DNA of 37,424 nucleotides from a virus. Below are positions 6,505-37,424 of this stretch, piece by piece. The DNA lies in IMG/VR virus record IMGVR_UViG_3300027704_000001, positions 1 to 37,424 of that record; one strand, given 5' to 3'. Both the position numbers and the translations under genes were made by a program. The notes below the pieces were generated by a model. That model was not told the origin of the DNA, searched no databases, and saw only the letters and a program-made list of their open reading frames with translations. Position 1 is the first letter of the stretch; the number at the start of each line of letters is the position of its first letter.

Positions 6505-6545
6505 CAAAAAAGCCCTACTTAAGTTTCCTTAGGTAGGGCTTTTTA
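6505..6545. terminator. Bidirectional rho-independent terminator between convergent arms
   Basis: AAAAAAGCCCTACTTAA, loop, then TTAGGTAGGGCTTTTT: a 16 bp stem with one G-T position, preceded by an A run and followed by a T run. It therefore works on both strands. It lies exactly between the end of the rightward operon (6494) and the end of the leftward operon (6557). Confidence 0.93.
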
Positions 6546-24814: not shown

Positions 24815-24843
24815 ATTATAACATATTTTAGCCAAAATGTCAA
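24815..24843 (-). promoter_or_regulatory. Sigma70-type promoter for the capsid block
   Basis: Minus strand TTGACA (24843-24838), 17 bp spacer, TATAAT (24820-24815), with TG one base before the -10 (extended -10). Both boxes are perfect consensus. It differs at only 3 of 29 positions from the late promoter at 28845-28873. Confidence 0.92.
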
Positions 24844-26992: not shown

Positions 26993-28270
26993 TTAGTATC
27001 CTGAAATTGAGTCTAGGGCTTCAAAGTTATCTAACTCTTCAAAGTTACCAGCGTAAGTTACCTTAGCTAGTTGGTCAATGTAAGCTAAAGAGTCTACCAA
27101 GTCGTCGTGGGTTAGAGGGTCGGGAAAGGCAAAGAGCTGGTCTAAGAATATAGGGTGCCAGTCTTTCTTCTTCTTGTTGAGGGTAATACGTCCATGCTCA
27201 AAGCGTCCCTGTAGTGACCACATTATACGGTCAGTCTTACGTTGGTTACCGTGAGTCAGTTCTTCCACTCTAAAGTAAAAGTTCTGTCTTTTCATCATAT
27301 CCATAAGTGGAGACATAACAGCTTGTTTGGATATTCCTTTCTCTATACCAATGCTCATAGGTTTGTAGTCTTTAACTACTTGGAATATCTTCTTTGCTGT
27401 ATCGTCTAAAGTCCATCTGCCATGTATAATATCTTCGACAAACCAACCTTCTTCGGTTACAAATACAATTGATATAGCCGAGGAATCTAAACGTGAAGTG
27501 TTACCTTTCTTCTTAGATACGTCTTGGAAGCCAGCTAAGTCTATAGCGACATAGTAGTCTCCATCCTCTGAGGCAGGTTTAGTGCCAAAGTTAAGCCATT
27601 CCTCCTTAAACATCTCAGAGCCTTGGTTTTTAAAGCTAGCCATAAACTCTTGTTGGAAAGCATGACTTGACATAGACTTCTTAGCTACATCTATTTCCTC
27701 AGGGTCTAAGGTTTCATTATCGTAACTTGTGAAGTGCCATGCAGTAAATGTAAGGTCATCATCACCAGACAACTCAGCATACTTATATAAGTCATAGAAG
27801 TGGTTACGACCCTTAGGTGTGCCTATAAACAAACAGCCACCCTTTTGGTCAGCCAAAGCAGGACGTAGTATCTCTTCAAATACCTCTGCTTTCATATCGG
27901 CATACTCGTCTAACACTAGAAACTTAAGACTTACTCCACGCATAGTGTCGGGTCTATCGGCTCCCTTAAGACTTATGGTAGAGCCATTTATTAAGGTTAT
28001 TTGCATATTGTTAATGTGTGCACTTCGGACGACAGGGCCGCCTAGTTCGACTAACAACTTCCACATAATGTCTCTAGCTTGCCCTTGTGTAGGTGCAACG
28101 TAGAAGACATGAGAGTTAGGTAAGTTAGCTTGTAATGCATTGACTATAAGAAGCCAAGCAGCTAGACGAGACTTACCACACCTTCGACCTGCGGCTACTA
28201 CTCTAAAGCGAGTATCATCAGCCCAGACTTTCTTTTGCCAGTCTAAGAGCTCTATAGTTAAGTCGCTCAT
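26993..28270 (-). CDS. Terminase large subunit
   Basis: The 425-residue packaging motor ATPase and nuclease. Walker A is AAGRRCGKSRLA (G28-S34), Walker B is FLVLDEYAD with D121-E122, and the coupling/motif III region is FIGTPKGRNHFYDL (148-161). The C-terminal RNase H-like nuclease shows AIDLAG (D244) and a late acidic DPLTHDDLVDSLAY. It is short but complete. The start overlaps the small terminase stop as ATGA, so the two subunits are translationally coupled. Confidence 0.95.
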   Translation of the reverse strand: MSDLTIELLDWQKKVWADDTRFRVVAAGRRCGKSRLAAWLLIVNALQANLPNSHVFYVAPTQGQARDIMWKLLVELGGPVVRSAHINNMQITLINGSTISLKGADRPDTMRGVSLKFLVLDEYADMKAEVFEEILRPALADQKGGCLFIGTPKGRNHFYDLYKYAELSGDDDLTFTAWHFTSYDNETLDPEEIDVAKKSMSSHAFQQEFMASFKNQGSEMFKEEWLNFGTKPASEDGDYYVAIDLAGFQDVSKKKGNTSRLDSSAISIVFVTEEGWFVEDIIHGRWTLDDTAKKIFQVVKDYKPMSIGIEKGISKQAVMSPLMDMMKRQNFYFRVEELTHGNQRKTDRIMWSLQGRFEHGRITLNKKKKDWHPIFLDQLFAFPDPLTHDDLVDSLAYIDQLAKVTYAGNFEELDNFEALDSISGY

Positions 28271-28671
28271 ATAACCTCGTACTCCGCATCACTTATGTCT
28301 TGTTCTTGAGAGCCAGAGATTTCTGGGGTGCCGACACCAGTTATGTTTATCTGGATGCTACTCTTACCACCGCCCTTAATGATTTCTTTCTCAAAGGCTG
28401 CTACAGGTGCGACTCTATCCATGACAAGCTTCCATGCACTAGCTTGGTTCTTATGTTCATTGTCTAAGGCTGCATCAAAGATAGCATCTAGCACTTTAGC
28501 TGACTTAGGACTAGCTAACATCCTAGCTTTGTATTCATTAATTATTGTAGCATCACCTTTGGGTCGACCAATAATACCTTTAGGTTTCTTAAGTGTTGAC
28601 TTGGGTGGCCTACCTTTTCTCTTAACTACTTTAGTGTCTTCGGAAACTTTAGAGTCTTTAGTTGTAGACAA
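28267..28671 (-). CDS. Terminase small subunit-like, with AT-hooks
   Basis: A 134-residue protein directly before the large terminase. The N-terminal third has two AT-hook-like motifs, KRKGRPPKS (18-26) and IIGRPKGDA (33-41), which bind the minor groove of AT-rich DNA. Residues about 45-90 are helical (SAKVLDAIFDAALDNEHKNQ); the C-terminus is acidic. It should recognise the packaging site. The start is TTG: GAGG lies 8 bases upstream at 28683-28686 and no ATG fits. It is the first gene behind the late promoter and the long palindromic leader. Confidence 0.75.
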   Translation of the reverse strand: MSTTKDSKVSEDTKVVKRKGRPPKSTLKKPKGIIGRPKGDATIINEYKARMLASPKSAKVLDAIFDAALDNEHKNQASAWKLVMDRVAPVAAFEKEIIKGGGKSSIQINITGVGTPEISGSQEQDISDAEYEVI

Positions 28672-28698
28672 AACAATTACCTCTTTGTTGAGATTGCT

Positions 28699-28823
28699 TT
28701 AACAACTTAAGTGCCTTAAGTATACTTAAGTTTCCTAAAGCTCTTTAAGTTGATACTTTAATTATAAATAAAGGATAAACCTAAAGAGCTTATAGTTGAC
28801 TTAAGTACACTTAAGGTTGTTAA
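28699..28823. repeat. Large imperfect palindrome upstream of the terminase genes
   Basis: A nested inverted repeat centred at 28764/28765. Inner arms 28739-28764 and 28765-28790 match at 22 of 26 positions, beginning with a perfect AGCTCTTTA/TAAAGAGCT. Outer elements CTTAAGTATACTTAAG (28715-28730) and CTTAAGTACACTTAAG (28800-28815) are each near-perfect palindromes placed symmetrically, and TTAACAAC/GTTGTTAA flanks them. It lies in the 5' leader of the late transcript and could be a packaging site, an operator or an RNA structure. Confidence 0.85.
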
Positions 28824-28844
28824 GCTGCTTTAGAACATAAGTCT

Positions 28845-28873
28845 ATTATAACATATTTAAGGCTAAATGTCAA
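28845..28873 (-). promoter_or_regulatory. Late promoter for terminase and structural genes
   Basis: Minus strand TTGACA (28873-28868), 17 bp spacer, TATAAT (28850-28845), with an extended -10 TG. Perfect consensus for a host sigma70 RNA polymerase. Expected start near 28838, giving a leader of about 165 bases before the small terminase gene. Confidence 0.92.
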
Positions 28874-29149
28874 TACATTTCTAATGTTTCTTTTGTTAAC
28901 TTATGTAACTTAAGGTTACCTTTAACCTTTATTCTACAATAGTTGTTAAACCCTTGTCTACTGTAGGTCTACTCCTGTTTTCTTTTAATTTCTTTTATTG
29001 ACTTTTATGTCTTTTGTTAACTTAAGGCCTTGGGTTAACTATCGGCTACCTAAGGCAGAAAGTCAAATGACTCTTTAGTAAACTTAAGTGCCTACCACAA
29101 GTAACTCAGGATAACTCCACGCCCCCGACCCCCAACTTTGGTCAAACTA

Positions 29150-29242
29150 TGACTAACTCAAGGCCTTTGGTCACCTCGTGACTAACTCAAGGCCTTTAGT
29201 CACGCCATGACTCACCAGTCTAACTCAAGGCCTTAGGTTGAC
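29150..29242 (+). repeat. Iteron-like direct repeats with AAGGCCTT core
   Basis: TGACTAACTCAAGGCCTTTG-type units: 29150-29174 and 29179-29203 are 25 bp copies differing at one base and spaced 29 bp apart. A third, diverged copy lies at 29218-29242. Each has a palindromic AAGGCCTT core and TGAC/GTCA flanks. Confidence 0.85.
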
Positions 29243-29285
29243 ATGAGTCTACCAATGTGCCAGGCACTTGAGTTTACTTAAGGCC

Positions 29286-29330
29286 TTGAGTTAACATAAG
29301 GCACTTGAGTTAACATAAGGCACTTGAGTT
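29286..29330 (+). repeat. 19 bp tandem repeat, 2.4 copies
   Basis: TTGAGTTAACATAAGGCAC occurs at 29286-29304 and 29305-29323, with the first seven bases again at 29324-29330. It contains the inverse of the TAACTCAA part of the neighbouring iterons and a GTTAAC palindrome. Confidence 0.9.
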
Positions 29331-29436
29331 GTCAACAGTTAAAACTATTGGGTTTACTTGAGTTATAGAAGTTGACAAGTGTATGCCAATGTGGGTGCCT
29401 CCAGCTAACTAATGTTAGCTAATGTTAACCAATGTA

Positions 29437-32875: not shown

Positions 32876-32904
32876 TTGACAGGTTCTAGGGTAGTGTGTA
32901 TACT
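32876..32904 (+). promoter_or_regulatory. Sigma70-type promoter for the replication operon
   Basis: TTGACA (32876-32881), 17 bp spacer, TATACT (32899-32904). The expected start is near 32911, giving a leader of about 145 bases before ssb that contains two palindromes. Confidence 0.9.
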
Positions 32905-32907: not shown

Positions 32908-32930
32908 TAAGAACAAGAGGCAATACTTTA

Positions 32931-32951
32931 AGTTTATATTAATTATAAACT
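32931..32951. repeat. AT-rich inverted repeat in the ssb leader
   Basis: AGTTTATA-TTAAT-TATAAACT, perfect 8 bp arms, extended by CTTTA/TAAAG. A related sequence (ACTTTAATTATAAATAAAGG) lies at the centre of the late-leader palindrome near 28755-28774. Confidence 0.75.
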
Positions 32952-32986
32952 AAAGGGCATAAGGTTTACTTAAGAGTCTAAAGGCA

Positions 32987-33002
32987 CTTAAGTATACTTA
33001 AG
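32987..33002. promoter_or_regulatory. 16 bp palindrome shared with the late leader
   Basis: CTTAAGTATACTTAAG, identical to 28715-28730. Both copies have GGCACTTAAG or its inverse next to them, and both lie in leaders downstream of promoters. Confidence 0.8.
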
Positions 33003-36874: not shown

Positions 36875-37382
36875 CATAATAGCGAGAGTAAAGACTAAAC
36901 TATGGGAAGAGGAAGGTGAATTATGGTATAGACATACAGACGGGAAAAGACGTAAGTATAAAAGCAGACCTAAGACAAACAATGGACGTATGTTTGTAAA
37001 TGGTAAGTACATATCACGGACGCACCCATTGTATAAAGCTGGTAGGTACAAATCATTCAATGACGCAGCCTTTAGCTCGTTTACCAATTACAAGCGAGTT
37101 AACAAAGGCGAGGTATACATTATAGTTAATGAGGCATGGCCTGAGTGGGTTAAGGTAGGTAAAGCTGTTAGTTCGTTAGACAGGTTAGCTAGCTACCAGA
37201 CAAGCGCCCCTTTACGAGACTACAAACTGTTTTGCGCTGTACCTGTTGACAATAGGCATGAGTTTGAAGTTGATTGCCATGCAGCCTTAAAGAGCGCAGG
37301 ACTAGACTTTAAAAATGAGTGGTTTAAGACTACACCTCAGAAAGCTAAAGAAATAATGGAGAAAGCTTATGAAGAAAGGTAA
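36861..37382 (+). CDS. GIY-YIG family nuclease (T5orf172/MUG113-like), 173 aa
   Basis: The C-terminal half is a GIY-YIG-type fold: GEVYIIVNE (83-91), WVKVGKA (96-102), R108 in LDRLASYQTSAP, and ExxxH (E136, H140) followed by NEWFKTTPQKA. This is the T5orf172/MUG113 pattern. The basic N-terminal half (KRRKYKSRPKTNNGRMFVNG) may bind DNA. Start: ATG 36861 overlaps the polymerase stop by 14 bases; an in-frame GTG at 36834 is possible. Lying between polymerase and exonuclease, it may be a free-standing homing-type or host-degrading nuclease. The gene continues across the circular junction. Confidence 0.8.
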   Translation: MIHTDIIARVKTKLWEEEGELWYRHTDGKRRKYKSRPKTNNGRMFVNGKYISRTHPLYKAGRYKSFNDAAFSSFTNYKRVNKGEVYIIVNEAWPEWVKVGKAVSSLDRLASYQTSAPLRDYKLFCAVPVDNRHEFEVDCHAALKSAGLDFKNEWFKTTPQKAKEIMEKAYEER

Positions 37383-37424
37383 ACCTTTTGATAAATGCTT
37401 TGTAGATGCTGACAGCTTAATATA
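37298..37424. repeat. Terminal direct repeat, right copy
   Basis: Identical to bases 1-127; see the left copy. Joining the ends restores intact nuclease and exonuclease genes. Confidence 0.95.
37369..37424 (+). CDS. 5' end of the exonuclease gene (partial, same as 72-824)
   Basis: The first 18 codons of the exonuclease (MKKGKPFDKCFVDADSLI), cut by the window end. The complete copy starts at base 72. It overlaps the end of the GIY-YIG gene by 14 bases. Confidence 0.9.
   Translation, partial: MKKGKPFDKCFVDADSLI

Follow-up and report, generated by a model that had tools for sequence, protein, structure and literature searches.

What does a nested palindrome of more than 100 bp do when it lies between a strong promoter and the terminase genes of a phage? 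The question is raised by the window analysed here, a stretch of 37,424 nucleotides (positions 1 to 37,424 of IMG/VR record IMGVR_UViG_3300027704_000001) from a marine podovirus-like phage whose lineage is represented among the metagenome contigs of IMG/VR. A sequence-only reading of this locus, made without database searches, had offered three roles for the palindrome, namely a small-terminase recognition (pac) site, a multi-dimer operator, or a long RNA hairpin cut by RNase III. The large terminase (TerL) of the phage is less than 60% identical to all its matches in the phage collection, a distant blastn search of the region against cultured phages gave no match, and no described counterpart of the hairpin leader turned up in the literature searched. 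A reliable host was not found from genome-contig relatives, the best being a Flavobacteriales MAG contig with a 59% identical TerL, which may be a binning error.

The symmetry first claimed, about 120 bp of nested palindrome around one centre, is borne out. Positions 28715-28730 (CTTAAGTATACTTAAG) form a perfect palindrome (16/16), and positions 28800-28815 (CTTAAGTACACTTAAG) are self-palindromic at 14/16 and identical to the former copy at 15/16; between the two lie inner arms, 28738-28764 and 28765-28791, that match at 23 of 27 positions (22 of 26 in the sequence-only reading). A separate repeat search returned the arms 28703-28731/28799-28827 (83%) and 28738-28764/28765-28791 (85%), and the centres of the nested arms coincide to within half a base. 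On the minus strand, 28829-28701 is a 52-pair quasi-palindrome that reaches slightly beyond the span first reported, and folding of the leader RNA, which had been suggested as a check, gives one hairpin of -64.3 kcal/mol, compared with -28.0 +/- 3.5 in dinucleotide shuffles (z = -10.5, with 0 of 200 as good), inside which run continuous stems of 18 and 14 pairs. The plus-strand fold of the palindrome reaches -53.5 (z = -6.5). No intrinsic terminator was called at the palindrome, which lacks a T run, as had been remarked from the letters, and does not combine a GC-rich stem with one; an Rfam search of the leader returned only sub-cutoff matches, to plant or animal miRNA precursors. The features of the locus are collected in Table 1.

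Table 1. Features of the late leader, of its neighbouring genes and of the second leader, in positions of the window
Feature	Position	Strand	Basis
Late promoter, TTGACA-17-TATAAT with TG extension	28845..28873	-	12/12 sigma70-type consensus; same place in relatives
Leader hairpin, 52 predicted pairs	28701..28829	-	RNA fold z -10.5; arms also by repeat search
Outer 18-pair stem, 5' arm, with CTTAAGTGTACTTAAG palindrome (minus-strand reading)	28799..28816	-	
Outer 18-pair stem, 3' arm, with perfect palindrome CTTAAGTATACTTAAG	28714..28731	-	
Inner hairpin with family core motif (CTTTTAGTTATT...ATTAAAG type)	28736..28795	-	model R1 match
Small hairpin CAATCTC...GAGGTAATTG with Shine-Dalgarno of terS	28674..28696	-	single window match; in most close relatives
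Small-terminase-like gene (terS), 134 aa, two GRP/AT-hook motifs, late operon gene 1	28267..28671	-	adjoins TerL
Large terminase gene	26993..28270	-	Pfam Terminase_6N E 5e-19
Promoter of helicase-polymerase operon, TTGACA-17-TATACT	32876..32904	+	11/12 consensus; counterparts in relatives
Second leader element, a hairpin with CTTAAG palindromes	32919..33002	+	blastn, R1, fold

The palindrome had been placed in the late leader beside the terminase genes, and this position holds, for it lies downstream of a strong promoter and directly before those genes. Judged from the promoter, transcription would start near 28838, and the hairpin begins about 10 nt downstream of the late promoter (stem near +10, with some 9 unpaired nucleotides 5' of it, as estimated from promoter spacing) and ends just ahead of the small-terminase gene. 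This gene is conserved in all relatives inspected; its protein gave no match to phages, Pfam, PHROGs or solved structures, and its AlphaFold model from 28 homologues was poor (pLDDT 58, pTM 0.26). The small hairpin at the terS ribosome-binding site is highly conserved, which suggests translational control. Elsewhere in the window, a second 12/12 consensus promoter is found on the minus strand within the late operon (24815-24843), kept in relatives and followed almost immediately by a start codon; its leader is only about 12 nt long and has no hairpin. At 6509-6545, where two long operons converge, stands a hairpin that resembles a strong terminator for both directions and is flanked by runs of A and T, and direct repeats (ACTCAAGGCCTT, AGGCACTTGAGTT and the like) are clustered at 29011-29340, between divergent operons and near the minimum of the cumulative GC skew, possibly as a replication origin or a regulatory array.

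The comparison covered 80 close TerL relatives and 80 from a sister clade. Where a close relative includes the full region, its late leader measures 116-260 nt and contains one or two hairpins, whose stem sequences vary between phages with the pairing retained; across relatives, unrelated stems occupy one position, among them GCAGCTT/AAGCTGC, AGACACTTT/AAAGTGTCT, GTCTTTAG/CTAAAGAC and AGCTCTTTA/TAAAGAGCT. Comparison of close pairs gave 46 changed pairs among 1503 paired positions against 86 changes among 1253 unpaired ones, i.e. stems change less than loops. More conserved than the stems is the core motif, which mostly lies near +50 of the late leader, with repeats of CTTAAG at about +71 to +92. 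Many relatives have stems far shorter than that of the window, or interrupted ones, and nested and tandem hairpins occur in L008, L058, L153 and L163. The model built for this family (R1) contains sequence only, because RNAalifold on the MAFFT core alignment gave no consensus structure, which we think is due to alignment slips on AU-rich stems; R1 matches the inner hairpin of the window on the minus strand with 44.5 bits (E 4e-12), this sequence itself being in the training set of the model.

Whether the hairpin signal is peculiar to leaders was answered by control stretches, folded without G-U pairs so that both strands are scored alike. The late leaders have a mean z of -2.89, with z < -2 in 24 of 32 families (the families are related and the counts hence not independent), against mean values of -0.61 and -0.28 in 110-base stretches lying 5' of these promoters and of -0.2 in coding stretches. 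Since neither the upstream nor the coding stretches carry it, the signal is a property of leaders that are transcribed and not of non-coding DNA generally. The leaders of the helicase-polymerase operon give a mean z of -3.12, with 10 of 13 below -2, compared with -0.46 upstream; at the third promoter (24815-24843 in the window), where the leader is minimal, the value is 0.03 (n = 19). CTTAAG occurs 18.2 times per kb of late leader, 3.2 times per kb upstream and 0.68 times per kb of coding DNA, and pairs of it 9-11 bp apart recur in both the late and the helicase-polymerase leaders. A first strand comparison, in which the sense z was lower in 19 of 21 cases, was discarded since the shuffled baselines differ between strands, and a symmetric wobble test was used instead.

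The window itself carries the element on both operons. The first leader matches 32926-33002 by blastn (E 4e-6), R1 gives a weaker match at 32919-32957, on the opposite strand, and the second element folds with z -2.9 (no-wobble z -5.0). According to the R1 search, the core motif also lies just downstream of the helicase-polymerase operon promoter in several genomes of the clade. It was further seen in L214:3562-3603 and L215:2286-2326, downstream of a promoter that precedes the helicase gene in a lineage whose helicase is 48% identical, with no clear closing stem.

Six leader families of the sister clade possess a late leader of 22 nt without a hairpin, with TerS, the GRP/AT-hook motifs and the gene order kept, and others (L074, L079, L257 and L283) have late hairpins at the same place but of wholly different sequence. 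Phages with the same gene order and no inverted repeat had been named beforehand as evidence against a role of the palindrome; they do exist in part of the sister clade. In the helicase-operon leaders of this clade, a stem-loop of only about 5-9 pairs opens the predicted transcript at about +1 to +3. Eleven different pairs of its arms, which were anchored manually as MAFFT misaligned the stems, have standard pairs in 49 of 55 anchored cells (shuffle p 5e-5), with 6 G-U and 0 A-C; as judged from these arms, in which some changes are shared by descent, the 5' stem-loop shows covariation of RNA type. Between it and the ribosome-binding site, extra hairpins of differing sequence were observed in L322, L324, L329, L356, L365 and L379.

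Does the element of the window, then, act as RNA or as DNA? Within its own clade, second-operon leaders included, G-T and A-C mismatches number 44 and 52, with no strand preference, and in close pairs 6 and 14; this equality does not support selection at the RNA level acting on single pairs and leaves room for a DNA operator made of CTTAAG sites. The restriction of the signal to transcribed leaders speaks for RNA, as does the sister clade, and from these comparisons we consider action at the RNA level rather probable. As to the covarying homologues that the sequence-only reading proposed to look for, the hairpin is kept while its sequence changes, and the sister clade covaries, but a wobble bias is lacking in the own clade. 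Among the three roles first proposed, the long RNA hairpin stands best.

The explanation that we prefer, with a probability of about 45%, is that the palindrome serves as a hairpin acting in cis within the 5' leader of the late mRNA (terminase to tail), where most likely it would protect the long late and middle mRNAs. Host RNA polymerase would initiate at the consensus promoter (28873-28845) and produce the long AU-rich hairpin within about 130 nt, with the small hairpin at the terS ribosome-binding site next; the former would form a structural obstacle close to the 5' end, shielding very long phage mRNAs from 5'-end-dependent decay, and RNase III trimming would perhaps come before or alongside this barrier function. 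There would be two such leaders per genome, the other one heading the helicase-polymerase operon. A hairpin hindering 5'-end-dependent decay would explain the position, the occurrence on two operons and the indifference to sequence.

Protection of the mRNA specifically is a tentative proposal. In bacteria, mRNA is known to be stabilised by a hairpin, a bound protein or a ribosome site lying at its 5' end or close to it, and the stem-loop stabilisers of ompA type resemble the present element in their place near the 5' end of the transcript, which for the window is a predicted one, and in keeping structure over sequence (PMC3997798; PMC7509114). The likeness is very clear in the helicase-operon leaders of the sister clade, and it is pairing, not sequence, that is conserved, as seen in the different stems at one place and in the sister covariation, yet without wobble bias in the clade of the window. 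Unlike ompA-type stabilisers, the window hairpin is much longer and AU-rich, is preceded by about 9 unpaired nucleotides, which is more than in classic 5' stabilisers, has a conserved core and occurs on two phage operons, and its stabilising role is putative. In fact, mRNA protection does not explain the conserved core motif, for which a barrier acting by structure alone would have no use; the missing RNA-specific selection in the own clade and the sister phages without any late hairpin also speak against it.

Closest to the multi-dimer operator of the sequence-only reading is the view that CTTAAG palindromes 9-11 bp apart, downstream of promoters, form a DNA operator, through which a regulator of the phage or the host would set the timing of the middle and late operons. 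It agrees with the enrichment of CTTAAG in leaders, with its paired spacing in both of them, with the lack of wobble bias and with near-perfect promoters that would otherwise be active early. However, the spacing fits RNA loops of 3-5 nt equally, the sister hairpins of L074, L257 and L283 have other sequences at the same place, the sister middle leaders have G-U pairs only (no A-C), and no regulator was found; we regard an operator as unlikely.

Nascent-RNA antitermination, by which leader RNA would bind the transcribing polymerase and keep its processivity over long operons, is decidedly unlikely. Its model is HK022 putL/putR, two related leader RNA elements with two stem-loops downstream of sigma70-type promoters (PMC9378689), and the phage studied here likewise has two mutually similar elements per genome, each just 3' of the sigma70-type promoter that drives a long operon and laid out as a main hairpin plus a CTTAAG hairpin. 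Antitermination explains the two related elements but not their rapid turnover, which is far quicker than polymerase contacts would predict. Unlike in HK022, no terminator excess to overcome was found, terminator-like sites being no more frequent than in shuffles, and the third promoter, which feeds structural genes, has no element; put-like activity here, which would suppress termination by way of the zinc-binding domain in the beta' subunit of RNA polymerase, is putative. The chance is likewise slim that, in this widespread uncultured marine phage lineage, paired fast-evolving leader RNAs act on host RNA polymerase or an early phage protein to control replication and the late operon, as a new put-like or protein-bound family.

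RNase III hairpins are known in the mRNA leaders of T7 and lambda, and a processing site of this kind would trim or activate the late mRNA. With 18 and 14 continuous pairs within its 52, the element resembles these precedents, long hairpins that lie in the leader of a phage mRNA or between its cistrons. However, neither stem length nor loops are conserved among relatives, many of which have much shorter or interrupted stems, and the sister-clade stems have about 5-9 pairs; cleavage here is putative, and a processing site as the main role is improbable. Very improbable is an origin by template switching in replication, which would make and correct palindromes that are tolerated without function in non-coding leaders: the nested and tandem hairpins of L008, L058, L153 and L163 and the lack of wobble bias fit it, but non-coding DNA upstream of the same promoters has no hairpin signal and stems are conserved better than loops.

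Scarcely credible, finally, is the pac site: although the palindrome adjoins the terS gene, whose product has GRP/AT-hook motifs, and pac sites, those of P22 type included, often lie near terS, the element is promoter-linked and present twice, with its second copy at the helicase operon, and sister phages in which terminase genes, TerS motifs and gene order are unchanged have hairpin-less 22-nt leaders (a pac elsewhere being possible there), which argues against a required packaging site; in others, unrelated hairpins take its place. The palindrome is, very probably, a leader element and not a packaging site. Closed-circle assemblies break elsewhere, at different genes, and give no sign of an end here, though such breaks do not map the ends. 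The window has an exact direct terminal repeat of 127 bp (1-127 and 37298-37424), and the relative G002 has the same overlap length with its break in another gene; the repeat is probably the assembler k-mer overlap of a closed circle, with a unit genome of 37,297 bp, and does not give the physical ends.

The lineage seems to rely on host promoters, and no phage RNA polymerase was found among the proteins searched. Its natural variants, i.e. leaders with no hairpin, with a small 5' hairpin and with a giant nested hairpin, offer a ready test series for the effects of 5' structure on phage mRNA. If the preferred explanation is true, leader RNA structure would be a shared, rapidly evolving device of control or protection for the two principal operons in a marine phage lineage that is common.
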